This document shows positions 37,261 through 62,385 of a DNA stretch of 64,000 bases, piece by piece. The translations under genes and the position numbers were made by a program. The DNA is from Polytrichum commune. Taxonomy: Eukaryota > Streptophyta > Polytrichopsida > Polytrichales > Polytrichaceae. Positions within the stretch are counted from its first letter, which is position 1. Each line of letters begins with the position of its first letter. The notes under the pieces were generated by a model. The model was not told the origin of the DNA. It saw only the letters and a list, made by a program, of their open reading frames with translations, and searched no databases. The stretch lies in NCBI GenBank assembly GCA_950295325.1, contig OX485807.1:30349666-30413665 (forward strand). Direction: 5' to 3'.

Positions 37261-37832
37261 GTAAATCTTAGTGCGGTTGATTGCATTCGTAAGTTACAGT
37301 TAACACTATATTCGTTAAATTGAGACTTTCTCTAGTCTCAAATTAATATATGGATCAAACAACATTCCGTGTTCCGAAACTATATTGCGAACAATCTCAA
37401 ATATATTATATGTTCTAATATCCCAAATCTATTATGTGTGGACATAAGCACATATGGTAGAGCACTCAACACCAACTTCATCAACAAAAACACTTTGGGT
37501 AGAGCACTCCAAACTAGTTTCACCCAAAAAACATATAAAATGATTTCTATTAATAGCATGGTCAATAAAATATAGACATTGCAACATAGAAAGTGCATGC
37601 AATAAATGCATTTTTCTTCAATGGAAAATTTAGTCCCAAACTTAATAAAAAAATGAACTTCACAATTGTATTGAAATATAGTAAATGGATATTCATCCAA
37701 CCCCAAACAATATAGCATTCGCAAGTTCTACCCAAACTTTGCCCCAAGTTTGAGGAGCACACATATGAGTAATATATATTCGTCGAATCACAGTTTACAC
37801 TATAATCATGCTAACACAATCCTACCAACTTC

Positions 37833-40800
37833 TCATTCAACGTGGGTTGCTTCTTCTCCGATCCGAGCAAGGTTGTCTTTTGCAAAAGTTATGTACTTTT
37901 GAGGGATGGACACTGATCCACTATGATTTTTCCGTGGTTTCCATGCTATGAATATGGAATCTGTATCTACCCAAGATGGACCGTGCTCAGAATCCACCTT
38001 CCACCGAAAGTGTTGGTTTGTATCCCAGCCTGTATAATGCCGAACAACATCTTCATTCCGTGCTGTCGGTCGGTAGTACTCCACTTGTATTTGTCGAAAA
38101 TGAGGGCTGGAAGATACAAAATTTGGATTGGACAAAGCTCTTGCCACCCACACTGGCTTTGCATATGTCTCATCTCCAGGACGCAAAATGAGCATATAAC
38201 CTTCATGACAATCCACTGCAATGCGGAAAGATGGTGGCGGACGACTACTAGCAGGCCCAACGTAATGGTCGTCCATATCAAACTCCTCGCGAACCTCTCC
38301 ATTACTCAAAAGACTAGCCTCCGAAGCTTGTACATCAATACGAGTTTGTGGCCAAAATCCGTGCCTCAAAGTATGAGGGCTATCTTGGTGGAGATCTGCC
38401 AAGGCCGCACGAACACGTGTCCAATAATGTATCCAACTCCCATAACGATGCCAACATGATCCGCCAACATCCGCTATCTTCAAACTCTCCCAATATTGAA
38501 TGAAACCTGATATACCTTTCAAAATATCCTCCAAATTCTTCATGGCTATTGGCTTGCAAGGCCTAGGCTCTCCATCCGGTAACATGGTCTTCCCATCCGC
38601 ATCCACGCACCACACAAGGAGACCCTCTGGCGGGCTCCAGTCTTGTGTCGTGCACAACAACTTGTATTGCATGGCCGGGACACCATCGTCACGCATGTAG
38701 AACCGGAATTGTTGTGCCTTCGTATGGCCAATCAATCGATGAGCTCCACTTCGAATATAAGGTTCTATAAATGCCTTGAAGTCTGGCACCTCCTCAATCA
38801 TATGGGGGATGACGGGAACGTTCTCCAAATCCATGTACGACTTCATCAATAACGGGATTGTAGGAAAATCCTCCTCCCGCAACTTCATGCTCCACCGTCC
38901 AAATGATGCATCAATATCGTCGTGCGTGTGGCCTACCAATAGGAAGGACACAAAAACCTCCTTGAAAATGCCTTTCGCAACCAACAACAACCAATATGCA
39001 AATACATATCTACTTTTATTGTCCTTGGCACAATTGTCCAATTGGACACGCAAAGTGGGGGGCAACTTCTTGGCTATCACCGGTTCACTAGGTGGTTCGG
39101 GCAACGAATGCAAGCATACATCTTTTCCATCCATCACTGCTTCATATAAAGGTGTTGAACCCGTGTTTTCAAATAACAATCCTGAAGAATAGGCTGGCGG
39201 TTTCTCTAAATCACGCAAAAGCCTTGCAAATGACCCTATCGTGTGGTTTGAATCTGTTGGATACAAATCAAGAGCATAATGGGCAAACTTGACATCACCG
39301 TGTCCATGTGCAATCATTCCTACAATGCCAACCCAAAGTGATTAGTACCTATGTATGTCTAAATCGTTTTGAATGAATCAATGTTCTCAAGTACATCACG
39401 GAATAAAATACAACAATATTTAGGGTATGTCATAACATTGTTTCGAAGATCACCTGTAACCGATACATGCAACTTAAAAAATCCATCCGTGGCCTTGATT
39501 CGTTTTGCAAAACATGGGGAGGCTGTCTTGGCATGGTCCATTTTGTCATGGATGACCGTAAGAACTTCCAAGGGCCTGGAGATGGACAAAGCTCTATTTG
39601 TGTAGTAATCATTACGGTGTGCCTCTTGCATGTTTACGTGCTTGAAATAGTTCAATTGATGCACCGCAAACGACTCGGTACCCATCGTGTGTGCATCCCG
39701 AAGGCGCTTCAACTTCTCGCAATTAGAGCACCTTGCAAATTTGTCCCCTCGTCTTTTTGTAATGTATTCGCTGAAGTTTGCTTTCTTGATTGCACTCAAT
39801 TTTGACGATGAAATTGGCTCCAACCCAATCTTCTCGCCAACTGCATTTACATCCAACAATATGTCTTTCCATTTTGTGCCTGTGGGAAGAACTTTCTCCA
39901 CAACCTTTTCACCAGTTGTGAGTGTGCGTGTTTTGTGCGGCATTGCATCGGCAAGCGGGACAATGATGGTTGCTAGAGTGGCCGTTGCTTGCCTTGTTGT
40001 TTCCCTAGGTTTCTTTAAACCCACGTTCCCATGGTGACGGGACCGGCGGCCTTCCTTGGCATAAGCAGCTTGTCTATAAAAGTCCGCTTTCGACACACCA
40101 TGAATGGTGTACCATGCCTTGCAACACACGTCTATGCTCTCAATGGTGATGACCTTGGGACCCGCCCCATTCACATGTATCGCCCTATGCACATCAAGTT
40201 TTTTGGTGGATCTTAGACGGAAATCACCAAGCCACATTTCTTCGCGGATGGCCTTCAATTTATCCCGGGGAAACAATTGGCAACAACGATGCACACAACA
40301 ATCCTTTGTGGCAACTTCTCTAATGGACTCCTCCCCGAGCAACCTTTGACGTTTACAATCAGTTGCAGACGGAGCAGGACGTGCCAATGTATCGTACTTT
40401 CTTTGACCCTTGCGTGGCCGCATGTTTGATTGCTGTTCTTTTTCGATTTGCAAGTGTCGTTGCTCATGTTCATACAAACTAACTCCATCAATCGTGACAT
40501 TCCTCAATGGCCACCTCCGGAGGGAGAACCTATGAGTGGGATCCACCTCGGAATGAACGAACGACTCCAATATGACAACCCCAACGTCCTCGGTGCCAAG
40601 CGGGTTTTCATCAATGCAATCTTGTGGATGGGTGTTGCGACAAATCCCCTCTGCCACAGCAACTCCACTGTCATTAAGAAGTACCACCTCCAAATTCACC
40701 CATGAAGCCCTTGAGAGTCCCGTACATTCAGCAATGGGACATTGCGGTACGGAAGGCGAAGGTATATCCAAATGATCTTCATCTGCACTGTCAGCCAAAG

Positions 40801-40905
40801 TATCCTCCCCGACAATGTCTATCTCATCCTCAGATGCAGATGGCGAAGTGGCCATATCTTCAGATGACCAATCCCCTCTTTCACTAAACCCATTCATTCT
40901 GCCTA
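37833..40905 (-). CDS. Transposon-type protein with DUF7869-like domain, two exons
   Basis: Exon 1 runs from about 40905 (a TGTGTAG acceptor-like site precedes MNGFSERG) to before 39359. Exon 2 starts at 39319 after a CATTGTAG acceptor and ends at 37833. Together they give roughly 1,000 residues. The N-terminal half is acidic, then has a Cys-rich block (CCVHRCCQLF), CSNCEKLKRLRD and HDKMDHAKTASP. Exon 2 carries RVQLDNCAKDNKSRYV and FLLVGHTHDDIDASFGRW. I associate the D-N-C, K-x-N and G-H-T-H-x-D-I-D blocks with DUF7869, a domain repeated in plant and other eukaryotic genomes with transposase-like conserved acids. The C-terminal part is unique. No stop breaks either exon. The donor of the short intron is uncertain. 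The 79-bp palindromic array begins about 200 bp upstream. Confidence 0.6.
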
Positions 40906-41109
40906 CACACATGAACATTGAACCTTATCAAGAAACCACAAAAATTGTAGGTTCCAATCGAATAATACAAAAACCATCTTATATAAAAAATATTGCAAAT
41001 ACTCAATGTTCATACATGTTCGTATGACTGCTATGCCATTGGCTCTGTAAAGGTTTGGGTTGGCCAGTGGACACACTATCATTTAGAGCCCATCCACACG
41101 GTGGGTCTG

Positions 41110-42400
41110 GGTTTGGGTCGACCTACCCAAACCTTGTGGCACGATGGGATCATGGTCATCCAGATTCCATCCAAACAGTGGGGATAAATTGGGTCGAGCG
41201 ACCCAAACGTTTTCGCAAGATGGGTTCAGGCTCATCACAGAGAGCACCCACACAGCGGGGATGGATTGGGTAGACCGTCCCAAATTATGTAAGGGCACTG
41301 GGATGGGTCAAACCTAGTACATGCCCACTGTGGGATAAGGTTTGGGTCGACCGACCCAAACCTTATAGGGCAGGAAGGGCTCAAAGTCCACCCTAGTACC
41401 TGCCTCACGTGGGGGTGGGTTTGGGTCGACCGACCCAAACCTTCAGGGGCAGGATGGGCTCCGTGTGCACCCTAGTACCTGCCTCATGTGAAGGTGGGTT
41501 TGGGTCGACCGACCCAAACCTTCAGGGGCAGGATGGGCTCCGTGTGCACCCTAGTACCTGCCTCATGTGAAGGTGGGTTTGGGTCGACCGACCCAAACCT
41601 TCAGGGACAGGATGGGCTCCGTGTGCACCCTAGTACCTGCCTCATGTGAAGGTGGGTTTGGGTCGACCGACCCAAACCTTCAGGGGTAGGATGGACTCCG
41701 TGTCCACCCTAGTACCTGCCTCATGAGGGTATAGGTTTGGGTCGACCGACCCAAACCTTGAGGGGCAGGATGGACTCCGTGTCCATCCTAGTACCTGCCT
41801 CATGAGAGTATAGGTTTGGGTCGACCGACCCAAACATTGAGGGGCAGGATGGGCTCAGTGTGCACCCTAGTACCTGCCCCATGTGAGGGTGGGTTTGGGT
41901 CGACCGACCCAAACCTTGAGGGGCAAGATGGACTCCGTGTCCACCCTAGTACCTGCCTCATGAGGGTATAGGTTTGGGTCGACCGACCCAAACCTTGAGG
42001 GCCAGGATGGGCTCCTTGTCCACTCTAGACCCTGCCTCACGAGGGGATAGGTTTGGGTCGACCGACCCAAACCTTGAGGGCCAGGATGGGCTCCTTGTCC
42101 ACTCTAGATCCTGCCTCACGAGGGGATAGGTTTGAGTCGACCGACCCAAACATTGAGGGGCAGCATGGGCTCCATGCGCACCCTAGTACTTGCCCCATGT
42201 GAGGGTGGGTTTGGGTCGACCGACCCAAACATTGAGGGGCAGGATGGACTCCGTGTCCACCCTAGTAACTGCCTCATGAGAGTAAAGGTTTGGGTCGACC
42301 GACCCAAACCTTGAGGGGCAAGATGGACTCCTCAGATGATCAGGGTCAGGCTGAAACCCGCCCACACTAGCGGAGGGGTTTGGGTCGACCGACCCAAACC
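41110..42400. repeat. 79-bp tandem array built on a 22-bp palindrome (centre AC)
   Basis: Thirteen copies start at exactly 79-bp steps (41341, 41420, 41499 ... 42289), with a further copy at 42379 and three degenerate ones at 41112, 41188 and about 41265. Each has the arm GTTTGGGTCG, the centre AC and the arm CGACCCAAAC. The rest of the unit ('gggcaggatgg..ctccgtgt' and 'ccctagtacctgcc') is also conserved. One copy (42131) has an arm mismatch. Short open frames across it are by-products of the repeat. Confidence 0.95.
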
Positions 42401-42420
42401 TGATAAGAGTCACCCTAAAA

Positions 42421-45280: not shown

Positions 45281-46497
45281 TTGCTTTTCGATTTTTGGGC
45301 TAAGCCGCTATAGATAGCGGCTTAGAAGGCCGGGGCCGGGCTTTGGCGGGCAGGAGGCCGGGTGGCCGCTAGGCGCCAAGTGTGCACCCCAGAAGCCTCG
45401 GGTAGCCACCATCACCAATAAGGTGTTGACACATGGCAGGGTGGCTGCCCGCGAGGCTTGTGAGCCGTAGATGGGCTCGGGGCGCTCCCATGGCCCAGAT
45501 TGGGTCCCATGGCGACCCTTCGCTTTGTCTATTTAACTCCCTCCGCGCCAAGCTCCCTCCTTTCTCTCCCTCATTTCTCACCTTGTCGTGAAGCGGCGCC
45601 TCCGCCTAATGCCGCTTCCCACATTCTCTCTCTCATTCCTTTCCACCTCTCTGATTCTTGTAACCCTCTTCTCTCATTCTCTCTTTTTCTTGTAAGGGTT
45701 TAGGAGTGATTGTAGAGTGTGTTTAGGGGTTGGGGAAGTGTTTTTGTGTAGAAATATGCGCATTGAGTGATTTCAGGGTGTGTATGTTGATTAGGAGTGT
45801 TGTTTTGTTTAAAAATACAAGCATTGAGTGATTTCAGAGTGTGTTTGTTGGTTAGGACTGCAAGCGGCGCCTTTCGACTTACACTCATTCTCTCATACTC
45901 TCCTTCTCTCTTCTCTCATTCTTCTCGCCGTCTCTCATTCTCTCTTCTTCTTGTAAGGGTTTAGGAGTGATTGTAGTAGGGTAGTGTTTTTGTGTAAAAG
46001 TATCCGCATTGAGTGATTTCATAGTGTGTTTGTTGTTTAGGAGTGTTGTTTTGTTTAAAAATACGAGCATTGAGTGATTTCAGAGTGTGTTTGTTGGTTA
46101 GGAGTGTGTTTTTGTTTTAAAGTGCGCCGTTGTAGTGATTTCAGAGTGCTTTTGTTGTTTTGAAGTGTGTGTGAGTTGTTTGTGAAATCTAGTGAGTGGA
46201 ATTCTAGTGAGTGTTAGTGATATCTGAGTGTTCAGGTGTAATCAGATTCTAAGAATCAGATTCGCAAAACCTATTCGCAAAACAACATCAGATTGGTAGA
46301 GCTTGCATCAAGGTAACTTATCTCATTCAACATAACCTGCTTCTTAGCCTTTAGGGTCTTCATGCATATACAATGTATAAGCATTGTATATGCAGCGTAA
46401 AACATTATGGGTGAATATGGAAACACTACGGTTTCGGTAGACGCCCGAAACCTCTATATAAAACCCCAAACCCATAAAGAATTAACTGGGCAGCTAG
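45281..46497 (+). promoter_or_regulatory. Probable 5' flank of the long ParB/methyltransferase-like gene
   Basis: A GC-rich patch (45318-45420) is followed by two diverged tandem copies of about 250 bp (45695-45865 and 45950-46130), each with 'gcattgagtgatttca' sub-repeats. TATATAAAA at 46455-46463 is a plausible TATA box. The array of palindromes starts 35 bp downstream, so it would fall in the transcribed leader. This reading is inference from position. Confidence 0.4.
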
Positions 46498-46870
46498 TTT
46501 GGGTCGACCGACCCAAACTCTGCAGCTGGTTGGGTTCGAACGACCCAAAACCTGCAGGCGGTTTGGGTCGCTCGACCCAAACTCTGCAGCTGGTTTGGGT
46601 CGCTCAACCCAAACTATGCAGCTGGTTTGGGTCGCTCGACCCAAACTCTGCAGCTGGTTTGGGTCGCTCGACCGAAACTATGCAGCTGGTTTGGGTCGAG
46701 CGACCCAAACTCTGCAGCTGGTTTGGGTCGCTCGACCCAAACTCTGCAGCTGGTTTGGGTCGCTCGACCCAAACTCTGCAGCTGGTTTGGGTCGCTCGAC
46801 CCAAACTCTGCAGCTGGTTTGGGTCGCTCGACCCAAACTCTGCAGCTGGTTTGGGTCGCTCGACCCAAAC
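46498..46870. repeat. 32-bp tandem array of the palindrome (centre mostly CT)
   Basis: Twelve copies start every 32 bp from 46498 to 46850. Most have arms GTTTGGGTCG and CGACCCAAAC with centre CT. The first has AC, 46530 is rearranged, 46690 has AG, and two have single arm changes. The 10-11 base spacer contains CTGCAGCTG and hardly varies. Because 32 is not a multiple of three, all frames stay open across it, but I do not regard them as genes. Confidence 0.95.
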
Positions 46871-47129
46871 TCTGCAACCTACAAATCCAATATCCCAAGA
46901 TAAACATCCTTCCCACCATCAACAAGAAATTATATTCAAATGGCTATAATTTGAAATCGTCTGATATTTGCTGGCATGTCCACATACGTCCAGCGCGGCT
47001 CTAGAAGGTCACCGAAAATTGCTCTCATGTTGGATAATTTGACCACTACACAATATTCAATATATTCATATTCTTAAGACCCGAACTCTACCAATAATTC
47101 TTATAAGATTAGGCTATTCGAGGCTTGGG

Positions 47130-47236
47130 TTTGGGTCGGTCGACCCAAACCTCTTCATGATGGCCAGTAGAGCACCCTTCAATTCGCACTGATGTTCAAT
47201 CCAAGTTGAAAAACTTTGGGTCGATCGACCTAAACT
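47130..47236. repeat. Two single palindromes in the leader (centres GT and AT)
   Basis: One copy at about 47130 has centre GT. One at about 47215 has centre AT and one arm mismatch (CGACCTAAAC). They lie between the 32-bp array and the acceptor CTTACAG that precedes the start codon at 47262. Confidence 0.85.
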
Positions 47237-47261
47237 AACAATTTTGTTTCTGGACTTACAG

Positions 47262-50200
47262 ATGGCCACTAAAAAGAGACCTGGAGAGAGGTGGTTCATT
47301 CTCGCCCCAGACTACCTTTGGGAGGAGTACGAAACTCCACAGGACGACTCATACGTCCCAAAGGATGGGATTGTTTTTGCGTGGTCCGTTCAGGTTGTGA
47401 AAGCCTCCCAGTACAAGCTCTTGTTCGTGGTGAAAGTGGGGACCCACGAGCAACACACCTGGGCAACGCTGACGGGATGGGAGGTTGCTTCCGTCCAAGC
47501 TCTCGGGGAGCACGTTGACGTTATTCTAGAGAACTCCGCAGTGCAGAACGTGCATATGTTCATGCACCAATTCTCCGAGGCTTTCGACCCCCTATACGCC
47601 AAGGAGACGTGCGTTGACCCGGAGATAATAAAACCGGAGACCATCTTCATAGATGGCACTGTATCGAACACCAAGGTCGCTAGCAGGTTCACAAAACTGA
47701 AACAAGCGATCACGGTTTTGAATAAAGCGTTGCAAAGCAAACCAAAAACGCAACAACCTGTCAGGCGGAAGGCCAAGACAGAAGAAGGAGCAGGTTCCTC
47801 CAGACCCCAATCTGTGAGGATTCCGCTGGCGGTTCCGGCAGATTCTAGAAGACCGAGCACTACCTCGACTCCGGCTGACAGCGAGACGCCAACTCCTTCA
47901 GGAAGCCGGCTGACGACCCCCTCCGGGAGCCGGCAGACGACCCCGTCCGGAAGCCGGCAGACGACCCCGTCGAAAAGGGCAAGAGAGTCATCAGTCATGA
48001 CCACCGAGCCAGTTTCGCCAGAGTTGCGGATGCCCAAGCCTGGCCAAGAGGTTGATGATGGGGAAATTCAAAAAATCAATGACAATTTTGAGACGAAATG
48101 CCTCCATTGCTTCTTCATGGGCAGGGACTTCAAGTTCGAGGTGAACATTGCACAATGCCACCTTGCGCCACCTGAAAAGTGTGTCCGAGCCAAGGAGGAT
48201 GCCTATGTCGACTGGATGGTCGCTCAAATCTTGGGAGGGCAGTTCAAGGACGACAGGCAGACAATTGTCGTGATGCCCCAGGGGCTAAAAAGAATGCCTA
48301 CGGCTGATATGTGGCCGGCGATTTCTAAAGGAGATTTCTGGCTGATTGACGGCCAGCACAGTGTAGAGGCCTCCAAAAAAATCCAGCTGATGACTGAATG
48401 GGACGACCCCAACAACCAGAAGGAGAAGCTGAAGGTATGGAAGGCACTGGTGGTTTGGTCGGACAACGAGACCGTCCTCAGTGACATCTCCAGGTTTTTC
48501 AACATGGGGAATAAAAAGAGGGCGTATCAGGCATCCTGGATTAGGAATATAATGGCCTCGAGGGATGTGTGGGAGTTCTACGGCAGGCCGCCCAAGGAAA
48601 GGGAGAATGCAAAAGACAAGAACCCAAAATGGGAGGTGAGTAAGTTTGGGTCGATCGACCCAAACTCTTGTATTGTTTTATTTTCTTCCCAAGTTTTGTA
48701 GTTTGGGTCGATCGACCCAAACTCTTGGATTCATCAGATTTAAAGTTTGGGTCGATCGACCCAAACTATTGGCATGTTTTATAGTCTTCATCAGATTTAA
48801 AGTTTGGGTCGATCGACCCAAACTATTGGCATGTTTTATAGTCTTCATCAGATTTAAAGTTTGGGTCGATCGACCCAAACTATTGGCATGTCTTATAGTC
48901 TTCATCAGATTTAAAGTTTGGGTCGATCGACCCAAACTATTGGCATGTCTTAAACTGCTGTTCCATTTTTTTCATGATGTGTTCTCTAACATATGTTCTT
49001 GACTTCATGTTCAGGACTTCAAATACCAGATGATCAATAAATTCTCCTCTATTGACAACGCTAGCCACAAGCAAAAAAAATATAACGAGCTAAGAGGAGA
49101 AATCTACTTGATCACAGCGTCCGACTCCGTGTGGATAAAATGGAAGACTGTCTTCGAAAAACACGAGACGGGAGACCTCATCGATCCCGACACCGGTATT
49201 CTGTACAACCAGACTGCGCGCTTCAAGCAAATGAAGCCACTAGTGAGGGAGTTCTTTAGAGCTCTTCAAGGTCTCTCAGAGACAGAGGTGGGAAAGGCGG
49301 CGTCCCACATCCTCCACGTGGAGCCGACGGCGAAGAGATGCTGGGTTCACCCAAAGATCGTCTTCACGAAGCCAAAGATCTTCGTCCCTTCATGCTACAC
49401 CTTGAAGGAATGGACGGAGAACAGGAAAAAGAAGACGACCATTGTCCAAGAGCTGCACAAGCTGGTGCCCGAGAAGAAGCTCATCGTGGACGGAGAGGTT
49501 GACGAGGCGCACTGGAGGGCATTCAAAGCCGAGTACAAGTTCACCAGTGCGTCCATGGCGGCACTCATGAGGGAGGCGGGAGACGACTTCCTCAGGTCCA
49601 AGTTCGTGAAGGGGGGGAGGAACCGGGCGCTTCCCGAACACTCCGCGCGTGCCTTCTCCAACTTTATAAAGGAGAAGAAGATCGTCAGGTTCGAGGGCGA
49701 AGCTCACTTCAACTTGGTCTCCCTCGAACCTCTAAAGATCCAAGGTTGGCCGGGCTCTGAGTCCAGGATGGCGATCAGGACTGCAGCTGGGGACCGCTTC
49801 CCCTTCGGAATGATAGACTTCAGGAACATTCCTGGAGCCTCATTCGAGGGGACAATGAGCACCCCGTTTTACGAGCCGTTCTTCACCAAGTTTGTGGACT
49901 ACGCCAGCCCCAAATTCAGGGAGGTCGACGTCTGGTTGTGGATTGTCGAGGACAGGAGGGCGGAGCAGGTGTACGAGATCGTGCGTAAATTGCAACCAGA
50001 GTACGCCGTCTCAAAATCTCATTACGTTGCTGCACCGGCGGAGGGGGCGTACAGCTCATTGAAAGACAAGAAGACGAAGATAGTCTGTGTGTTGTGCTTG
50101 TACTTCGTGTACAAAGCTGAGCTGCTGAAGGTGCCAAACCATCCTATAGCCCGGATGGAAAAGCTTTTCCAAGTCCCAGAAGCGTTGGGCACCAGCAGGA

Positions 50201-53200
50201 GCTTGTACGACGAGGCGAAGTACGCCAACTACCCCGCGGATGAGCTGCGGATGGATTTTTACCTGCGGATGATGAGGACCCTCACGAAGAGGGGGGACTT
50301 CATCTTCAACGTCTTCGGGGGCTCCAAACCGATTTTTGCAGCAATGGTAAGAAACTAACCTCGTCGATCTATATGCCTGGTTTGGGTCGAGCGACCCAAA
50401 CTATGGGCATGCTTGGTTTGGGTTGCTCGACCCAAACTAGGGCATGCTTGGTTTGGGTCGCTCGACCCAAACTAGGGGCAGGCACAGTTTGGGTCGCTCG
50501 ACCCAAACTAGGGGCAGGCACAGTTTGGGTCGTTCGACCCAAACTAGAGCAGGCACAGTTTGGGTCGCTCGACCCAAACTAAGTATTCTTGTTTTGTTTT
50601 GGGTGTTATTTTTGCTTATTCTTCATTTGTGATCCTAATATTATTGATTTGGATTGTGCAGATGTCTGGGTTGAACATCTACTCCTATGTGGAGGATACC
50701 GATGTTCAATTCTACAGGACCCAGAAGGCTCTGGCGAAGAGAATGGACATCCTCGACTGGATTCCCGGATCCTACGTCGAAGAGATCGTCGAGGGGGGTG
50801 AGAACCCGTTGGATATGGCCAGGCGAATCAACCCAGGCGAATTCGTCATGCAGGCCCCCGTTCAAATGCCAGAACCCCTCACCGGATTGCATCTGGGCAA
50901 TCCGTCCGTGGAGGCAGGTGGCGAGGTTGCGGAGGAGGAAGAGGAGGAGGAGGAGGAGAAAGTGGAAGGAGAGGTGGAGGAAGGGGCAACAGGATTCACT
51001 CAAGAATCCGAGGCCCCTCAGCGGAAGAAGGCCATGCGTGTCGCGCACCTCTCCATGAGGAGTGGCCGAAACACCATGGGCACAAGGGGGACCCCGGAGT
51101 GACACCCGGGACTTGTGGCGCCGTTGGTGAGAGGGCCCAAGTGATCCTAGTGTGGGTGAGGGCCCCGGGCGTTGGGAACGCCTCCCACCCACGAAGACTA
51201 GGAGGCACAAGGGCAAGGCCATGAGCTATGCGTAGCTCATGGCGTGGTGATTCTAGAATGCTCAAGATCACCTCAAGCGGAGGTGGGAGCTAGGAGTTAT
51301 GGCCATTTGAGTGGGGCGCTGTCCCGGGACAGCGCCCTGGTACAGCAGTGCCTGGGAGTGATTCCCGGGACTGCCAAGGTTCAAACAGGCATAACTTCCT
51401 CAAGACTTGCTCAAATGGGGCAAGTGAGGAGTCCATCGGCATCTACGTGAAGCGTAGATGAAGATGGAGTGGTTGGTTGTTATGATCAGACATCATACAA
51501 GGAAGTTATGATGGTCTGAAGCTGCTGGGGGGGTTCTAGGCCCAGCGGCTAAGGGAAAATGTCCACTTGGCCCCAACTCTTGGTAGAGAGACAAGAGGTT
51601 GGTTGACGGTGGGGTAGGGGCCCCGCGTAAAGTCCTAGAGGCTTATATGGGTGAGGTGGTGTGGCCTCACCCACCCGAGGCCGAACGGCACGGCCTCCAT
51701 GGGCATTGGCCCATTGTGAGGCCATAGTTGCCTAGTATGGTTCGGGTTGTTGTAGTGTTGCTCCGGCAACGCGATGATCAACATAGGATTGGACTTCCAT
51801 GGATGGAAGTCCACATTGGGGAAATGGGTTACCGATTAAGGGGTGAGTCCCGAAAGCAAAGTAGGAGGGTTGGTTCCCTCCTATGAACTATTGGTCCGGG
51901 GTAAGAGGAGCTATCCATTAGCATGGCGGAATGCGAAGGGTTAGCAACTCGTAACCTTTGCTAGAATTGAAAATTGGCAAGATTATTAATGGACCTAGCA
52001 AGGGTTGCGACACGTGGTATCAGAGCAGGGTTCCAAATTTTGAGCTCACACTTTGAGGGAAACATGGCTATCAAAAATACGGGTTGTGATGGTGAGCCCG
52101 GGGTTTCCAAAAGGTTGTGAGGCTCAAATTGGAACAAGGATCATGTGCAAATAGAGTTTGATCATACCATTGATTTTAATGGTAATGGTGGGCATGAGGG
52201 TGGATTCGGTGAGGAAAATGGAGGTGTCCTTTGAAAGGGCTCCCACAAACCTCAAATAGTATTTGGGGCCTAGAATACCGAATGCACCCAAAACCTTGGA
52301 GGGTATTAATGTTGGATTGAAATTTCAATTCGAGATGCTTCGAAGGTTCGGATGTTGAAATGAACTTGGTGCTAATGAGGCACCCGGGGCCTCTTAAGGC
52401 CTATGTGTGCTATTCAAACGCACAAATGAAGGATACACCTAAAACGGACGAGCTTTCTAAGAAATGCATCGTTTTAGGTGGGGTTTTAAAAGCGGGTGGT
52501 GGATGCCTTGTTTAAGTCCCCAAGGCTTCTTGAGGACATGGTGGGGATCATCAAGTTTGCAAGATCATTGAATCCGATGGTCCCGAAGAAAAGTTTGGCG
52601 GCGCATCACCACAAGTGGCTTTAGCCAAAGTAGGTCCCAAAGAAATGAGTGCAAATTGTTTGGTCCATTTTACTTAGGCAAAACATATTGGTGCCGCAGA
52701 CGGAATGTTGAAAGATGGCTTTATGCTTCCAAAGCAAATCATACTTGTGCCGCGGATGGAATGTTGGGAGGTGGGTTTGTCCTACCAAGGCAATTCATGT
52801 TCGTGCCGCGGACGGAGTGTAGGAAGGTGGCTTTGTGCTACCAAGGCAAAACATGTTTGTTTTGCGGACAAATTATTAGAAATTGGTTTTGTGGCACCAA
52901 ACCAATTTGTCGTGCGGACGAAATGTTTAAAGTTGGCTTTGTGGACCAAGCCAAGCCAAGTTGCCGAGGACCAAATGTTGGACGATGGCTTTGTGGCCAA
53001 GGCTAGTAGCCTTAAGCCGAGGCCAAGTATTTTGTACCTTGAGGCTCAAATGAATGGGAGAAATGTCTCATGTGTTGACAAAGAGGCTATTACTCCTTCT
53101 TGAGCCCAAAACTCACAAGGGAGTTGGGGCTTGCCGATTGATAGAGAAAGCAAGCCCACCAAGGTGCGGTTTGGAAAGGGCAAACCGCATGAGACAAAGG

Positions 53201-56200
53201 AGGCCGCGATGCATGTAACCTTTCAATGTGGGACATTGGATTTTTGTCAAAATTTCACACCATGTGAAATAGATGAAATGCATATCATTGTGAAGGCCGC
53301 CTACGTTGAAACTCACATGATAGATGTGAGGTGCAAGCCGGTGAGCTTGCGGTGCATTATGATGGGTCATAATGGCAAAGAATTGAAGTTCAAATTGACA
53401 AGGACTCCTATGTTAGGAGGACCCAAGGTGAATTTGGTCTTAATGGACCAAATGAAAAATAGAAAACATAATGGTCGTGGTTCAATTGGAGCAACTCCAA
53501 GGAATGTATGGGGAGGCTAGGAAAGATGGGCCTCCTCCAAACCACATTGGTGGGATGTTGGTGAGATACAAGGATGTATTCACCAATGTGTTGCCCAAAA
53601 AAATTACCGCCAAGAGGTAAAAAATAACTTTGCTCAACGAGAGATTGAGTTCTTCAGGTATGTGGTGACAAAGGAAGTTGGTGGACGAACATGAAGAATG
53701 TCAAGGCAATCCAAAAAGAGAATTGGCCCTTGATTCAAGAAAAGGGCTTAGGTCATTTGTTGGCCTAGCCAACTACTACCACCACTTCATTCATGGTTTT
53801 GCTAAGGTTGCTAGAACCTTAGTCAACATGTTGGAAAAAAATGGCTATCCCCAAGAGTGGGATGAGCCTTGTCACCAAGCCTTTGGGAAGCTCAAGAGTA
53901 AGTTCTCTTCACAAGATGTGGTTAAGTTTCCGGGTTTTCATGAGCATGTTGAGGTGCACATGAAGGCGAAGGACTTTACCATTGGCGGATGTTGATCCAA
54001 GATGGATGACCATTGCTTATGGGAGCATTAAGCTCCGTGGTTGTAGAAGCTTGTCGAACTTGTGCAAGAAATGGCTATCCCAAGAGTGGGATGAACCTTG
54101 CCACCAAGTCTTTGAGGAGCTTAAGACCAAGTTCCTCTTTACCACCCGTGTTCAAGTTCGCGGAGCTTGAAAAACCTTTTGAGGTGCATACGGGGGGCGA
54201 GTGACTTTACCATTGGCGGATGTTGATGCAAGATGGATGGCCATTGCATATGAGAGCATGAAGCTCGATGGTTCGACTTGTGAAAGAAATGGCTATCCCA
54301 AGAGTGGGATGATGTTTGTCATGAGTCTTTGGGGAGCTTAAGACCAAGTTCTCTTTACCACCCGTACTCAAGTTCGCGGAGCTTGACAATTCTTTTGAGG
54401 TGCATACGGGGGTGAATAACTTTGCCAATGGTGGATTATGTGTAAGATGGATGGCCATTGCATATGCGAGCATGAAGCTCGATGGTTGTTAAAGAAGACA
54501 ACCAACTCATGACAAAGAACTTCTTTGCGGTAGTGCATTGCTTGAAGATGTGGCGACACTAGTTGGGGTCACACAAAGTAAAGGTCTACAAGGACAATGT
54601 GTCCTAAAAGTATTTTGACATACAAGCGCAAGTGAGCGCCAAGTCATTGCGTTGGCATGATAGCTTGGCGCTTATGAAGGTGGATTTGGTCCACAAACCG
54701 GACCGTGGAAATGTGGTGCCGGATGCGCGAAGTAGACCGGAAGAGTTCCAAGCAATGAGAACCATCCAAAAGTTGTGGCTAATGTGTGCGGCGAAGGAAA
54801 CTTGTGATGCAAGATACGGGAGGGGTAAATTAATTACCCCAAAGCACAAAAGCTTTTAGGTGAGCTTCGCAAGAGCAAGGTGCTCAAAGAGGTTAAGTTG
54901 GTGGACGGATTGTTCAAGTGCAAACAAAGTCGGGTATTTGTGCCACAAGGCAAGTTGAGGCTATCGGTTTTGAAGGAAAAATGTGATAGCCCTATTGCCG
55001 GCCATAGAGGAGAAAGAAAAAAAAACCGCCATAGAATGGTGTCAAAGAGGTACCATTGGCGGTGCATAAAAGAGGATATAACCCACTTTGTGAAGGCGTG
55101 AATAAAGTGCCAAGTGAACCGAGCCTCTTACCAAAAGCAAGGCGGTTTCTTGCAACCGTTGCCTATCCCGTCGGCGCCATGGCATAGTATGTGCATGGAC
55201 TTGATCATAAGTTTGCCGGAGTCACATGGGTATGATGCCATCTTGTTGATGGTAGAGCGGTTTGCCAAGTTGGCACACATGGTGCCGATTGTGGGAACCG
55301 CCACCGCGTTGGAGACCGCATAGCCTTTTCTCAAAGGATGGTTGAGGCACCACGGGTTGCCAAGAGTGATTGTGTGGGATCAAGATCCAAAGTTCACAAG
55401 TGCATTTTCAATGCATTTCTCTAAGGAGGTCGGAATGAAACTAAGGTTTAGCACGGCCTTGCATTCCCAAATTAATGGGAAAGCGGAGCATGTGAATGGA
55501 GTCTTGAAGCAATACTTGAGGAACTTGGTGGGGGCGGACCAAGGAGATTGGGCGGACTATGTGGGTCGAGCGGAGTGTAATTGCAATGTAGCCACGCACT
55601 TGGCTACCAAGGGGTGGTCTTTCGTGGTGGCTTATGGAGTGGATGCGCTCCAACCTATTAACCTAGCTCTCGAGGGGGCACATTCAACACTAGAGTTCAA
55701 CCAAGATGGTGAGGACTTGGCCAAGGATGGTAAACAAGTCTTGGAGATGACCAAGTTGTTGGTGGAGAAAGCCCGAAGGTGCTACGGAGTGCAAATCAAT
55801 GCCGGAAGACGCGAAGTGGAGAATGAGGTGGGCCAAAGGTGTTGTTGAATGTGAACAACTTCACTTAGCCGAAAGGCCTCACTCCAAAGTTCATGTCCAA
55901 AATTGGAGCTTTGTTTTCAATTGTGGAACAAGTGTTCAAGGACATGTATAAGTTGGAATTACTGCCGGAGATCAAAGTGCATCCGACATTTCATGTCTCA
56001 TTCCTAAAACCATTTAAGGACGACACCTTGTGGCCCGATCACAAGCAAGTGATTAGGCCACCTCCCCACCTTGTGGACGTCATTTGGAACATGAGGTAGG
56101 AGGGCATCCTCAAGTGTAGGAAGCCCAAGTAAAAATGAAAGAAAATGTACAAAGGAGTACTTGGTGAAATGGTGAGGATACCATGAGAAAGAAACCGCTT

Positions 56201-59200
56201 GGGTGGCGGCAAGAGACATGGTGAACACCAATGAATTGGTGAAGCACTTTGAAGAAACTAAGGCTAGACATTCCAATAAAATGAAGCGTAGGCATTGATG
56301 AGGACATCAATCTCCTTTAGTGGGGGAGAGACTCTAGTAGCAAACATAGCTTCGAGGTTAATTGCTCCACAACATGCACTTGTTCTTTGGCTTGAGGGAA
56401 TAAAGTCCAAACTTTAGTGGTGCAAAGAGAAAAGTATGAGATGAGGTCCTAGTCTTGTACTTGTGCTTGGTTAATGGAAGAGGGGGAATAGACATGCCAA
56501 ACTAGGTTGGGTAAGCCGAGTAATTGGGGCCATGGCTTGGAGGGGCCTTGGATAAAACCAAGAAACTTCTTAGTTGTGGGCTTGTCCGGGCGGGGACAAG
56601 GTGATGGCGCGTGCTCATAAAAGTGCTACCCGCGAGCTAACGAGAGTTGGCGCATGGGAGTCATGAACCCATGTCTCGAAAGAGCAAAGTGGGAACCGAG
56701 TCGGGCGGGACTTGGCATCACCCCCGTGCGATCGAGGCGTGGCTTAACAATGGAAAGCCATCTCGGAGTTGCAACCGAGACAACTTAGTGGAAGCGTTGA
56801 GGTCTCGCCTAGATGTGTCATGTTAGGCTAGTGAAGCCTAATGGGGGAGGCCCCAAAGGAGGGGCAACCCAAGTGAGTCTCAAAGTAGGTGGGTCTATTG
56901 TAGGTTAGGTCGTTGGAGGAGTTCCAAGGTCGCTAACGGACCGCCTAGTAACGACACCTTTGGGACTATGCCAAATTTGAAGATGCATTGTGGGGGTCGC
57001 GCCCTAAGGTAAACACAATGCCGCACCATAGAGGATGGCAACTTGAGAATTGGTGTGCCGACTACGAGTATAGTCGATGAGGGCATCGACTCCGTTTGGT
57101 GGGGGTGAGTGTCGCGCACCTCTCCATGAGGAGTGGCCGAAACACCATGGGCACAAGGGGGACCCCGGAGTGACACCCGGGACTTGTGGCGCCGTTGGTG
57201 AGAGGGCCCAAGTGATCCTAGTGTGGGTGAGGGCCCCGGGCGTTGGGAACGCCTCCCATCCACGAAGACTAGGAGGCACAAGGGCAAGGCCATGAGCTAT
57301 GCGTAGCTCATGGCGTGGTGATTCTAGAATGCTCAAGATCACCTCAAGCGGAGGTGGGAGCTAGGAGTTATGGCCATTTGAGTGGGGCGCTGTCCCGGGA
57401 CAGCGCCCTGGTACAGCAGTGCCTGGGAGTGATTCCCGGGACTGCCAAGGTTCAAACAGGCATAACTTCCTCAAGACTTGCTCAAATGGGGCAAGTGAGG
57501 AGTCCATCGGCATCTACGTGAAGCGTAGATGAAGATGGAGTGGTTGGTTGTTATGATCAGACATCATACAAGGAAGTTATGATGGTCTGAAGCTGCTGGG
57601 GGGGTTCTAGGCCCAGCGGCTAAGGGAAAATGTCCACTTGGCCCCAACTCTTGGTAGAGAGACAAGAGGTTGGTTGACGGTGGGGTAGGGGCCCCGCGTA
57701 AAGTCCTAGAGGCTTATATGGGTGAGGTGGTGTGGCCTCACCCACCCGAGGCCGAACGGCACGGCCTCCATGGGCATTGGCCCATTGTGAGGCCATAGTT
57801 GCCTAGTATGGTTCGGGTTGTTGTAGTGTTGCTCCGGCAACACGATGATCAACATAGGATTGGACTTCCATGGATGGAAGTCCACATTGGGGAAATGGGT
57901 TACCGATTAAGGGGTGAGTCCCGAAAGCAAAGTAGGAGGGTTGGTTCCCTCCTATGAACTATTGGTCCGGGGTAAGAGGAGCTATCCATTAGCATGGCGG
58001 AATGCGAAGGGTTAGCAACTCGTAACCTTTGCTAGAATTGAAAATTGGCAAGATTATTAATGGACCTAGCAAGGGTTGCGACAATGCGGGCTGCCACGCC
58101 GCAGAGCAAGCTAGTGCCCGTCCTCACGGTGGCCGACGCGAAGGACATGTATTCGAGGGACGCGACAGCCACCTTCAGGGAGCGGCGAATGCTGAAGGGG
58201 AAGAAATTATATAGCGACTATGCGGTGGAAGAGACGATCGCCATAAGCTCCGAGGACGAGGACGACATGGAGCTCGCAAAGAGGCTGAGGTCGGATCCTG
58301 CCTCCCCCACAGCGTTCGCCGGGATGGTGAGGGTGAAACCCGAGGTCCTCACCGTGGAGGAGGCCAACGCGAAGATGCTCCGGGACGAGGAGCAACGCAT
58401 CCGATTGCAGAAGGCCGCCGCCGAGGAGCCCTCGGTCCGCAACGAAGTCGCGGAGTTGAGGGCTCTCCTGTTGGAGCAGGAGCAGCAAAGGGCGATGGCC
58501 CCACCTCCGTCCCAAGCGGACCTGATCACGCAAGTGATCCAGGGCATGCTGGCGCAGGGATTGGTGATGGCTCCCCCGAGTTCATTCCCTCACTTGCCAG
58601 CAGGCTTCCCTCCACAGGATATCCGCCCGCGGCCGGCTACGCAGCAGTCCTTCAGCTTCGCGCATTTGTTGCAGCCTCACGCCCGCCCTTACGCGCCCGT
58701 CCAGCAGGTGGACGACCCCAACCTTTGGCGCGTCCCCGGAGCTTCCAGCCCGTTGGGACCCCCGCCGCTCCGGCCTCCCATCCTCTTGCCCCCACACCAC
58801 TAGCGGGACGACCCCCACATGTTTGGGTCGGCCGACCCAAACAGTGCCGACGTTGCAGCTTCCCAGAGCGACGCTCGCCAAGCAACAGGGTTTGGGTCGG
58901 CCGACCCAAACCCCGTCCCCGATCAGACCCCGGTGGACGAGCCCATGTTAGATGTTGAAGGCCCGCAAGGGCCTGGTGATACCTCTACTCCTAACCCAGT
59001 CGATGAACCAATGCATGATGCGCATGCGGAGGTTGGGTTGGGACAAAGGCCTGACAGTCAGCCTTTGCATGAGCAGGTTGAGGCTGAAGTCGTCGTCGGA
59101 GGCGGCGGTGACAGAGGTGGGGCAGCGCACGCGGTGACGGCATCCACGTCGTCAAGGCGCGACCAAGGCGAGGTAATGCACTGACCCCACTCAGTTTGGG

Positions 59201-60500
59201 TCAGTCGACCCAAACTCCCTGGGTCTTTGTCTTCTTGCCTTGGTCGTGTCCCCTAGCTACCCTAAACTCACGCACACGTCGCGCCCCCCGGCACTCGCGC
59301 CCTTCGCCACATCCCCCCGACCATTCATTCGTCCACATACCCCCGGCTTGCGACGAAGTCTTCATCACGGCGGCCCGTCTCTTTAATTTTTGCTAGATGT
59401 AGAAGTAGGCTAGTTTGAACGCATCGTTCAACGCGGCTCCCCCCCAATCAAGATGTACATAGAGCATTGTATACAATATAATCACCATTTTTTACTCCTA
59501 TATACTTGTATCCTGTGTTTGGATGTATGTTGTATGCTCTTGCCTCTCTTGTGTCCCTTGTTGCACCCCCTCCAAAATGAATCAAATGGTTTTGTGTTTG
59601 CACCGAGAACACTCGTTTCTTTAAATGCTTCGTTTGGACATAGCATGACATAAGTCGCCCACCGTTTTCTCTCGATCGTATCCGCAGGGCTCGGAGCATA
59701 GCGTAGCGGCTCCCCGACGCTCTTCTCCAAGGAGTGGAGAGGGCAGCGCGGCGGCGCCCCCGATTTTACCCGTCCCGCCCCCGCGGCCGAAGAAACGATT
59801 CCTGGTGTTAGACCTGAACGGGGTCCTCGTCCAATGCGTTCATTGCCCTAGGACCCCCACGGTGCCCTTTTGCAAGCCCGAGGATGCTAATTACGACGGG
59901 CCGCCCACATTCATAAAGAGCAAGCTAGTTCACCTCCGCCCGTGGCTTCGGACCTTCCTCCAGATGGCCCAACAGCGATGGTGGGTGGTCGTGTGGAGCT
60001 CCATGACGGCCGAGAACACCAATGCCGTCGTGGAGTTCGTCTTCAAGGGCATCGAGCCCCCCTGCATGGTCCTAGCACAGGAAGCCTGTAGAATATTGTA
60101 CACACCGGACGGCAAAGTCGTCAAAAAACCAAACAACCCCGCTTCCCCCCAATACCTCAAGGTCTTGAAGCCCATTTTTTGGGACCAGCGTCCGTCATTG
60201 ATAGGCGTCCCCTACGACGTCCGGCCCACCCGCGAGAACACGCTCATGGTGGACGACAGCGCCGCAAAGAACATGTTGAACCCGACGGCCAACCTCATAG
60301 TTTGCCCTACGTGGACGGTCGAGAAGGTCCGGGACCGATTTTTGTTAGACCTTGGTAAATACCTCCAGGCGCTCTGCGAAAGCGGACTGCCCGTAAACAA
60401 TTTTGTTAGGAACAATCCGATAGGCGAGAGATACTTGGATCCACGAGACCATTTGTACAGAGAGTTGTTATCTCACGCGAAATTTAACAAGCTCATTTGA
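47262..60500 (+). CDS. ParB-like / beta-class methyltransferase-like / FCP1-type HAD fusion, split by an LTR element
   Basis: Exons: 47262-48635, 49015-50346, 50662-51038 resuming at 58089-59172 (an LTR element lies between), and 59688-60500. All borders are GT-AG and all phases are 0. ATG directly follows CTTACAG. Without the insert it encodes about 1,659 codons. Exon 1: unknown N-terminal region, repeated TPSGSR linker, then a ParB-like block with FWLIDGQHS (Asp at residue 363) and DISRFFNMGNK. Exon 2: GMIDFRNIPG near residue 724, where motif IV would be, then RMDFYLRMMRTLTKRGDF and VFGGSKP (residues 891-897), joined to AAMMSGLNIYSYVEDTD across intron 2. This is the motif X to I region of beta-class DNA methyltransferases. 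Exon 3: acidic, coiled-coil and Pro-rich linker with an in-frame TAG at 58801-58803. Exon 4: FCP1/NIF-type HAD domain with VLDLNGVLV (residue 1431) and LMVDDSAAK. ParB and HAD calls are firm by motif; the methyltransferase call is by order and spacing. Confidence 0.6.
48636..49014 (+). repeat. Intron 1 with six identical palindromes (centre AT)
   Basis: Copies start at 48645, 48702, 48746, 48803, 48860 and 48917. The last three steps are 57 bp. Each is a perfect 22-base palindrome because the centre is AT. The donor is GTGAGT and the acceptor TGTTCAG. The first palindrome starts nine bases after the donor. Confidence 0.9.
50347..50661 (+). repeat. Intron 2 with six palindromes (centres CT, AG, TT)
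   Basis: Copies start at 50381 (AG), 50417 (CT, one arm change), 50452 (CT), 50488 (CT), 50524 (TT) and 50559 (CT), at 35-36 bp steps. The spacer is 'aggggcaggcaca'-like. The donor is GTAAGA and the acceptor TTGTGCAG. The intron splits the methyltransferase motif I region. Confidence 0.9.
51039..52012 (+). repeat. 5' LTR
   Basis: 974 bp, TGTCGC...GCGACA. It contains a perfect 24-base palindrome (51314-51337, centre GTCCCGGGAC) and other hairpins: CCATGAGCTA/TAGCTCATGG near 51219-51242, CATCTACG/CGTAGATG near 51440-51460, and GACTTCCATGGATGGAAGTC near 51794. Confidence 0.95.
52015..52026 (+). other. Primer binding site
   Basis: TGGTATCAGAGC starts two bases after the 5' LTR and matches the complement of the 3' end of plant initiator tRNA-Met, the usual primer of such elements. 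Confidence 0.9.
52027..53130 (+). other. Leader/gag-position region with a degenerate repeat of about 57 bp
   Basis: No intact gag was seen. From about 52690 to 53000 a unit beginning TGCCGCGGACGGAATG recurs about six times (52692, 52747, 52803, then weaker), encoding variants of a 'GFVLPRQ' peptide. This replaces the expected gag and suggests a rearranged, non-autonomous element. Confidence 0.5.
53131..54000 (+). pseudogene. gypsy protease-linker and RT/RNase H remnant
   Basis: The first part (53131-53520) resembles the protease-to-RT linker of Ty3/gypsy Pol (CEIDEMHIIVKAAYVE, VDLR-like and LGGPKVNLV stretches). Next, PPNHIGGMLVRYKDVF (about 53530-53580) is followed almost at once by EIEFFRYVVTKE and then by GLRSFVGLANYYHHFIHGF (about 53740-53800), the RT thumb and RNase H boundary. 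The RT palm with its catalytic acids is missing. Frames change several times. Confidence 0.75.
53838..54505 (+). repeat. Triplicated RNase H segment inside the retroelement
   Basis: The segment beginning 'atggctatccc..aagagtgggatga' occurs at 53841, 54071 and 54289, that is three tandem copies of about 220 bp. Each carries a decayed version of the same RNase H stretch (KPFEVHTG/GG). Confidence 0.85.
54600..56280 (+). pseudogene. gypsy integrase and weak chromodomain remnant
   Basis: Pieces in order: ALMKVDLVHKPDRGNVVPDA (RNase H end, about 54680), a zinc-binding part with HRG and a broken second pair (about 54990-55095), the core PWHSMCMDLIISLPESHGYD (about 55180-55240), WDQDPKFTSAF and NGKAEHVNGVLKQYLR (about 55376-55530), then VHPTFHVSFLKPF (about 55978) and a remnant resembling EYLVKW...ETAW (56157-56215). 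Stops at 55101, 55321, 55846 and 56097 break it. Confidence 0.85.
56292..56330 (+). other. Internal copy of the polypurine-tract region
   Basis: 'gaggacatcaatctcctttagtgggggagaga' closely resembles the true pre-LTR sequence at 57078-57110. It lies right after the integrase remnant, where the PPT of a standard element would be, so about 780 bp of extra sequence separates it from the current PPT. Confidence 0.5.
57093..57109 (+). other. Polypurine tract
   Basis: TTTGGTGGGGGTGAG lies immediately before the 3' LTR at 57110, the expected place for plus-strand priming. Confidence 0.75.
57110..58083 (+). repeat. 3' LTR
   Basis: 974 bp, the same ends as the 5' LTR. The two differences I found are C/T near 57258 and G/A near 57841. 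Confidence 0.95.
58822..58912. repeat. Two palindromes in exon 3 (centre GC)
   Basis: Copies start at 58821 and 58890. Centre GC makes each a perfect palindrome. Both are in the same reading frame as exon 3 and each would encode FGSADPN. They lie just after the in-frame TAG at 58801-58803. Confidence 0.9.
59173..59687 (+). other. Intron 3 with one palindrome
   Basis: Donor GTAATG, acceptor TATCCGCAG. One palindrome at about 59194 has centre GT and one arm change (GTTTGGGTCA). The rest has no recognisable feature. Confidence 0.75.
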
Positions 60501-60665
60501 GACACTACGTGTGTTTGTATGTGTATGTATGTATGTGTGTGTGTGTGTGTGTGCGCGCGCGCCCGTTCATTTTGTGTAATATATGCTTCATATGTATCTT
60601 GATTTTCACGCGCTCTATCAAACCCTCCTCCCTTGGGTTTTGTTTCGTTTCCTTTTTTGCGCCAG
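60501..60665. repeat. (GT)n/(GC)n microsatellite
   Basis: A GT-rich run at 60505-60552 leads into GCGCGC. It lies just after the stop codon of the fusion gene. Confidence 0.9.
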
Positions 60666-61501
60666 CGTTTGGAGCCCTCGATTGACATCGTCAGCGAGTC
60701 GGACTTGGGGAGCTTCTTCTACGAGACCGTCTACGACGCCGCGTCGACCATTGACTACTCCAAGGAGCCTCTTGACGCCGGCGTCGTCGATAGCCCCCCA
60801 CCCAAGCAAATCTTCCGGCATTCTCCGTCCCCGTCGCCGCTCAAGGGCATAAATCGCAAATGCGTCCGGACATCCCCCTCTCCGCCCGGCGGCAGTAGTA
60901 CACCTCAACGGCGGCTGCGGATGGACGCTCGGCCAACGAAGAGTGGAACCCTTCCTATTCCTTTGCGGGACGCATTGCCCCTCCTCGCCGACTCCGACGG
61001 GAACGCCCCCGGTGACAAGGTGAACCCCCCCCCCCCCCCCAAACCTGGTTAACCGCGCATTACAATCATTTTGCACTTAAAAAATGAACGTGTGACACGT
61101 TTGGGTCTTCCTCCCTAAACTAACACATGTGGTCTTGCATTGACGCGTTGCAGGTTGCTCCCACCCGTAAACCTATGCGGTCTAGTGCGTCCATCGAGTT
61201 CGAGCGTATGTACGCCATGACCAGAAATGCGAGACAATCCACTTCATCGTATTCGAATTCTTCGACGTATATTTCGGGTGGCCGACGGACTCCAAAATGT
61301 GTTATGGATGGCGGTCACCCCAAGAATGGCTATAGTCGCGGGGCGGAGATTTTCAGGAATGTTGAAGCAATGCGAGCAAAAGAAGCTGCAGCAAAAGAAA
61401 AAGAGGCAAAAGAAAAAGAGGCAAAAGAAAATGAAGCAAAAGAAAATGAAGCAAAAGAAAATGAAGCAAAAGAAAAAGAGGTAGTCTCCGAGGCTAGATA
61501 G
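60666..61501 (+). CDS. Two putative further exons, low-complexity tail
   Basis: Piece 1 (60666-61019) follows a TTTTTTGCGCCAG acceptor and ends at donor GTGAAC. Piece 2 (61154-61501) follows CGTTGCAG and ends in TAG. Both are in phase 0 like the four exons upstream. The intron between them holds a degenerate palindrome (about 61100: GTTTGGGTC / CCTAAAC). Piece 1 is Ser/Pro-rich (ESDLGSFFYETVYDAAS). Piece 2 ends in repeated EAKEK/EAKEN units coded by a 15-bp tandem repeat (61381-61481). If exon 4 uses an earlier donor, for example GTAAAC near 60393, these could be the true C-terminus. Otherwise they are a separate transcript or relic. Confidence 0.35.
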
Positions 61502-61619
61502 TCCATAGTAGGCGTAGGGTTGTGGGCCATAGGCAAGAACATTTTGGGTCGCACTATCCAATGGATGTGTGGTGTTAGCATGCTATGCATTTTACGTGCC
61601 ATACTTTGTATGTTTTTTT

Positions 61620-62150: not shown

Positions 62151-62385
62151 CACAAATATGAGTTATTAATGGGGTTCTTGGTCTAAACACCCGCTTCAAA
62201 GTGTTTGCATCTTACAACTTTCACCAATATGTGTTCCATTTATCCTTGTTCTTATTTCTATGAATGTCTCAAAATGCCCAAAAAGTCTCAATTTAACGAA
62301 TATAGTGTTAGTTTAGAAAAGGATACAAAAGTGAACTTAGTAAAAAATCAATTTTGATAAATTCAAATACTCCCTTCTTCGATAC

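Follow-up and report, generated by a model that had tools for sequence, protein, structure and literature searches.

A candidate ParB–parS-like self-recognition arrangement in a giant DNA transposon of Polytrichum commune

Background

The proteins ParB and KorB have repeated palindromic sites on the same element that encodes them. ParB-like domains are also known from algal transposons, including Sola1-1_Ec32, which encode an accessory protein with ParB-like and DNA methyltransferase domains that was suggested to bind its own transposon (PMC12477816). The joining of ParB to a methyltransferase in algal transposons is already published, and the parts of that account used here name no binding site (PMC12477816). 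Non-coding parts of the transposon that encodes VANC21 hold arrays of motifs to which this protein binds, and the motifs of VANC6 are different ones (PMC5735166, in the sections used here).

Here we describe a locus in Polytrichum commune that shares features with each of these systems. Like Sola1-1_Ec32 it is a giant DNA transposon with a ParB-like protein encoded opposite the transposase, but, going by the parts of the published description that we used, it is set apart by a putative C-terminal NIF domain, family-specific palindromes and the lack of a recognisable methyltransferase profile or catalytic motif (PMC12477816). With the VANC proteins of VANDAL elements it has in common a transposon-encoded protein, short arrayed non-coding motifs and a change of motif between related elements. 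The VANC motifs, however, are short and in one orientation whereas those described here are 22-bp palindromes, the sections of the VANC paper used here describe no ParB fold (PMC5735166), and anti-silencing is something that we infer for our protein. The predicted fold and the repeated palindromes on the encoding element are shared with bacterial ParB–parS, Noc and KorB, from which this locus differs in being eukaryotic, in having Ser or Thr in place of the motif Arg and in having no resolved helix-turn-helix. The literature searched (open-licence PMC articles) yielded no account of the palindromes, of how they pair with protein families or of the NIF addition, and the 22-bp palindrome looks new.

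Results and discussion

A many-copy giant transposon

The window is the whole stretch of 64,000 nucleotides that was analysed; it lies on contig C5 of an assembly of 407.8 Mb in 64 contigs, nearly all of which is made up by C1–C7 (77.9, 70.3, 59.2, 59.1, 52.9, 44.7 and 42.1 Mb). Positions 37302–62309 of the window are one copy of a many-copy giant DNA transposon, and the unusual gene within them is its cargo. The ends of the element and its transposase-like gene are as follows.

37298..37301, no strand: left target-site duplication AGTT, which flanks both sides
37302..37329, + strand: left terminal inverted repeat, 28 bp, AACACTATATTCGTTAAATTGAGACTTT, a perfect match to the right end
37836..40924, − strand: transposase-like gene of two exons (open frames 39362–40924 and 37836–39341), DUF7869 (PF25273, E 9.6e-43)
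62282..62309, − strand: right terminal inverted repeat, 28 bp, a perfect match to the left end
62310..62313, no strand: right target-site duplication AGTT, the same 4 bp as on the left

The element measures about 18 kb after a 7-kb LTR retrotransposon is subtracted, and copy comparison showed that its borders at 37302 and 62309 are common to the window and five other copies. When the six copies were inspected by eye, five had a 4-bp AT-rich target duplication (AGTT in the window, and AAAT, TAAA, ATTT and AAAT) and the sixth, C4a, had no flanking 4-bp duplication. Going by these duplications the element is probably of the Sola type; AT-rich 4-bp target duplications are shared with Sola2 transposons, as are chimeric elements sharing one end (PMC3627910, in the sections used here), but the transposase here is recognised only as Pfam DUF7869. 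This DUF7869 gene, which is divergent from the ParB-like gene and contains the motifs QLDNCxxDNK and GHTHDDID, is likely the transposase.

The preliminary description of this DNA had taken the cargo to be a eukaryotic nuclear gene and had proposed a count of its family members. That count gave at least 95 scored genome matches to exon 2, at 90–100% identity, among 1,229 candidates, and all exons of the gene are located inside the inverted-repeat-bounded element; the host-gene reading was rejected because of this copy number and the element ends. Viral origin was also considered, and exon 2 had no match in one scan of viral_contigs.

The ParB-like gene and its defects in the window

The gene runs on the forward strand and is interrupted by the retrotransposon.

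47262..48635, + strand: exon 1, with a PH/PTB-like N-terminus (weak), a linker and a ParB-like domain with FWLIDGQHS (modelled on relative P0002)
48636..49014, + strand: intron 1, with 6 palindromes, partly within a 57-bp repeat
49015..50346, + strand: exon 2, conserved, with motifs DFRNIP and FNVFGGSK
50347..50661, + strand: intron 2, in which units of ~36 bp carry 6 palindromes
50662..51038, + strand: exon 3, first part, to the LTR insertion
51039..58083, + strand: LTR retrotransposon within exon 3, 7,045 bp, not part of the element proper
58089..59181, + strand: exon 3, second part, with a low-complexity tail, a stop at 58801–58803, palindromes at 58822 and 58891 and donor GAG|GTAATG
59182..59687, + strand: putative intron 3, containing a single palindrome (59195, 1 mismatch)
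59688..60500, + strand: putative exon 4, FCP1/NIF-type HAD domain with motif DLNGV (from PF03031 and splice signals)

The peptides quoted in the preliminary description were all found where it had placed them. Its view that the exons splice in one frame held for the first three (47262–48635, 49015–50346 and 50662 onward), which have GT..AG borders and phase 0 joins, with the qualification that exon 3 is split by the retrotransposon; the NIF frame is putatively the fourth exon, judging from splice compatibility. Both the exon 3 donor, GAG|GTAATG, and the acceptor of the NIF exon, CAG|GGCTCGG (after CCGCAG), are in phase 0. All five other copies of this family (family 1) have the donor and four of them the exact acceptor string, C3a being the exception, while a further family-1 locus (L032) has a similar donor without the exact acceptor string. 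In a related family (family 2) the NIF frame is preceded by an acceptor CACAG, which like the donor GAG|GTAAC (loci L029 and L034) is in phase 0.

The retrotransposon has LTRs of 974 bp, one from 51039 and one at 57110–58083, and a duplication of ATGCG; its insertion site is uninterrupted in four of the five other copies, and the fifth, C4a, is without that neighbourhood. The stop at 58801–58803 is an open codon in all five. This insertion and this stop together mean that the window copy of the ParB-like gene is broken. Copies free of both defects exist, although exon 1 of C4a and of C3a is interrupted by a stop or a frame-breaking gap. As for the retrotransposon itself, its LTRs are 99.8% identical and its internal frames are broken by stops, as in a young insertion with a decayed interior, and each LTR contains perfect palindromes with other arms, GCGCTGTCC and GACTTCCAT.

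We calculated dN/dS between the window and the diverged copy C3b. Values were 0.04 for exon 1 (dS 0.84), 0.08 for exon 2 (dS 0.40), 0.19 and 0.16 for exons 3a and 3b, 0.56 on few changes for exon 3c (dS 0.07) and 0.21 for NIF (dS 0.10), and those of the two transposase exons were 0.23 and 0.09 (dS 0.15 and 0.18). These values indicate that the ParB-like gene is or was under purifying selection; relative to four close copies the changes were too few to judge selection. Across this single pair of elements dS extends from the value of exon 3c to that of exon 1, so that parts of the element have had different histories, exon 1 being the most diverged, and the spread points to segment exchange between subfamilies.

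Domains of the encoded protein

The ParB-like domain that the preliminary description had recognised in exon 1 is supported by structure prediction as a ParB/Srx-like fold of the ParB N-terminal type: in the model of relative P0002 the predicted fold is best matched by ParB, Noc and KorB. Loading of the CTPase clamp of ParB involves a GxxR-type nucleotide motif in which Arg is expected. We examined 76 relatives, 53 of family 1 and 23 of family 2 (with P0076 counted in the latter), and the motif was found in 37 and 16 of them, respectively; none of these has Arg at that place, where Ser or Thr, and once Asn, occurs within DGQHS or a close variant. This replacement makes loading of a CTP clamp doubtful. 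No helix-turn-helix was resolved after the ParB-like domain, the model being of low confidence beyond residue 393. Residues 1–150 of the exon 1 model form a confident beta-rich domain that is weakly PH/PTB-like.

N4/N6 methyltransferases have a motif IV of the form D/N/S-PP-Y/F/W and a motif of the form FxGxG. A methyltransferase-like domain had been proposed for the middle of the protein, with MIDFRN in place of the usual motif IV. The domain found no support from Pfam, NCBIfam or a PDB profile. Methyltransferase families gave no match in nine aligned rows at E up to 5 (six of the rows being without exon 3), against 6e-72 for the control, and the AlphaFold model of the region, built from 11 rows, had a mean pLDDT of 38. 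The deviant motif IV, in turn, was confirmed: all nine family-1 relatives that include exon 2 read DFRN[IA]P there, two copies of family 2 read DFRGIP, the lone PP[YFW] match falls within the proline-rich tail of P0003, and FGGSK is found at the place of FxGxG. A working ParB and N4/N6 methyltransferase protein might nevertheless bind and methylate its own transposon, as suggested for Sola1-1_Ec32, with the palindrome described below as its recognition site. The sole stretch that hhalign aligned to a bacterial methyltransferase does fall on motif I, and the ParB-like domain is encoded opposite the transposase like that of the published algal protein (PMC12477816, in the parts used here), but given the empty profile search and the altered forms of both motifs we consider such an enzyme improbable.

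FCP1/NIF domains have the catalytic motif DxDx[TV]. The frame at 59688–60500, with VLDLNGVLV and LMVDDS, matches Pfam NIF (PF03031) at E 2.3e-14 and 53.8 bits, above the cut-off of 21.8, and the corresponding score at L032 is 51.6 bits. The earlier assignment to an FCP1-type HAD domain stands, but the second catalytic Asp is absent, the motif reading DLNGV, with Asn for this Asp, in both the window and the family-2 frame.

Palindromes in non-coding parts of the element

A 22-bp palindrome, GTTTGGGTCG-NN-CGACCCAAAC, occurs in 36 exact copies in the window, most of them in introns or ahead of the two genes. The outer G before and C after its 20-bp core, TTTGGGTCG-NN-CGACCCAAA, are present in all 36, while its two central bases differ between sites. 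The core has 44 sites in the window when up to 1 mismatch is allowed, all at 41112–59214, compared with none in 100 shuffles, and the whole genome has 9,731 exact cores and none of a reversed-pattern control. The sites occur in repeat units of different lengths (79, 32, 57 and ~36 bp), and two arrays precede the genes.

41112..42398, no strand: array 1 of palindromes, with 17 sites at up to 3 mismatches, lying upstream of the transposase gene and built mostly of 79-bp units
46498..47234, no strand: array 2 of palindromes, with 14 sites at up to 3 mismatches, lying ahead of the ParB-like ATG and built mostly of 32-bp units

Allowing up to 3 mismatches brings the window total to 47. Array 1, next to the transposase gene, accounts for 17 and array 2, ahead of the ParB-like ATG, for 14; six each are in introns 1 and 2, two in the tail of exon 3, one in intron 3 and one near the 3′ end. 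The transposase gene, exons 1 and 2, the NIF exon and the spacer at 42411–46400 are free of them. The five other copies have 34, 34, 37, 33 and 29 exact sites, the last number being that of C3b, in which the arms are unchanged from those of the window despite the exon 1 dS of 0.84. In three of the five 40-kb stretches we also counted 5, 14 and 3 sites beyond the compared element, which we ascribe to neighbouring copies, and the family-1 loci L032 and L033 have 8 and 22 sites.

In other plant transposons, transposase sites are expected near the inverted repeats. Here the 3.8 kb at the left end are free of sites and the 3 kb at the right end have only one, with 3 mismatches, and many sites are located in the introns and upstream of the ParB-like gene. 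It is thus unlikely that the DUF7869 transposase is what binds the palindromes and that the ParB-like protein does something else, although one array does adjoin the transposase gene. The transposase upstream of another family-2 locus (L035) is 61–62% identical to that of the window and could have drifted in specificity too; because transposases differ between families, the transposase is still a possible partner of the palindromes.

Pairing of palindromes with protein families

Parts of a family-2 element adjoin copy C3a, which is apparently nested in it; the element encodes a related protein, with a stop in exon 1, and has seven exact TTACGAACG-NN-CGTTCGTAA sites in its introns. Family 2 has 89 scored genome matches among 1,184 candidates, and its palindrome has 3,737 copies genome-wide (control 0). 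The independent family-2 copy L034 has 8 family-2 sites and no family-1 site. Locus L030 holds both types (14 family-1 and 2 family-2 sites), again ascribed to neighbouring copies.

A search with P0076 revealed a third family, with 114 matches of which four (43–44%) are family-2-like. A third palindrome was predicted for it beforehand, and in the one locus read (3,000 bases) there are six TTACGGACG-NN-CGTCCGTAA sites, of which five precede the ATG and the sixth falls in what is presumed to be intron 1. Of the upstream five, four are in copies of one 135-bp unit and hence are not independent. One of the seven sites at this locus, just before the ATG, is of the family-2 type, and none is of the family-1 type. 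Identity in the ParB-like domain is 49% between families 1 and 2, 42% between 1 and 3 and 55% between 2 and 3, so that the closest proteins have the closest palindromes.

Among the 76 relatives, palindromes were decoded from protein predictions that had read through introns rather than from DNA. Family-1 arms were read through in 21 of the 53 family-1 relatives and in none of the 23 of family 2, and family-2 arms in 8/23 and 0/53, respectively; shuffled proteins gave 0.02 (family-1 arms) and 0.0 (family-2 arms) of 76. For the 29 proteins with a site the Fisher p of the pairing is 2.3e-7, the relatives not being independent of one another. Wherever a site could be decoded in relatives elsewhere, the pairing was kept. 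An exact site of the family's main arm is missing from 32/53 family-1 and 15/23 family-2 relatives, largely because little non-coding sequence was read through.

Variants of the family-1 arms also occur, TTTCGGTCG in five proteins, TTTCGGGCG in four and TTTGGGCCN in two, and in each case both arms had changed together; the variants form no clean clades. This genome contains no copy of TTTCGGTCG-NN-CGACCGAAA, a form deduced from the relatives. On a tree of 32 rows (the window, 23 family-1 and 8 family-2 relatives, excluding those without a decoded site or exon 1 and labelling P0047 by its family-1 arms), the palindrome label changes four times, the minimum being three and the shuffled mean 11.8. 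Relatives with variant arms in other species are P0004, P0005, P0006, P0019, P0031, P0032, P0035, P0036 and P0038, and P0019 and P0047 have two palindrome types each.

Alternatively, the palindromes might be sites of a host factor, or RNA or DNA hairpins that serve as a silencing trigger or as splicing or replication signals, and follow the families simply by descent. Sites in introns would indeed be transcribed and the arms could form hairpins, but the presence of three arm sequences within one genome, the constancy of the arms between the window and C3b at high exon 1 divergence, and 20 fixed bases around two variable ones, as with protein dimers, make this quite improbable.

A possible mode of self-recognition

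Fixed arms, a free centre and the match to families of a ParB-fold protein are the mark expected of a dimeric sequence-specific binder, and clustered palindromes on the encoding element, matched to the protein family, suggest a ParB–parS-like arrangement. The placement of the sites, in introns and ahead of both genes, is better suited to controlling expression and chromatin than to synapsis of the ends. We lean slightly toward the reading that the locus is a giant transposon whose ParB-like dimer recognises the palindromes of its own family, controls transcription and resists silencing. The protein would consist of the ParB-like domain, the conserved middle and, provided that exon 4 is spliced on, an FCP1/NIF-like domain at the C-terminus. 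As a dimer it would recognise the 22-bp palindrome with its free 2-bp centre and, with sites seeded upstream of both genes and in its own introns, would gather on copies of its own family and perhaps spread there. From the palindromes it would most likely control transcription of the transposon and keep host silencing off, as VANC does for VANDAL elements; this anti-silencing proposal is by analogy with VANC as a functional precedent (PMC5735166, in the sections used here). For the NIF part, RNA polymerase II or chromatin factors are possible targets. We give about even chances to the broader interpretation that this is a eukaryotic ParB–parS-like self-recognition system, in which each family has a ParB-like protein fused to a NIF domain that acts on chromatin or polymerase, and a private palindrome placed in its introns and promoters, the two diverging together so that several mutually blind families share one genome.

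If the ParB-like protein does bind these sites, a bacterial plasmid-partition fold would have been turned into a means by which eukaryotic transposons recognise themselves, and one genome would offer three site types for comparison. The published suggestion that the algal proteins bind their own transposons would then gain a concrete, testable site, and sequence-specific anti-silencing a second candidate class beside VANC. With 20 specified bases, a free centre and related proteins, these families would form a natural series for studying how a binder changes specificity.

Other features of the element and its surroundings

Open frames lie 3′ of the NIF exon, at 60603–61501 and 61584–62171, one of them with a KE-repeat run. 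The frame at 61154–61498 gave no sign of purifying selection (dN/dS 0.74–1.17 in the four copies with a value). A 98-bp tandem repeat is located close to the right end. Outside the element, a 196-aa open frame occupies 36733–37323, just beyond the left end, and a tandem array of ~40-bp units extends over 63582–63937.
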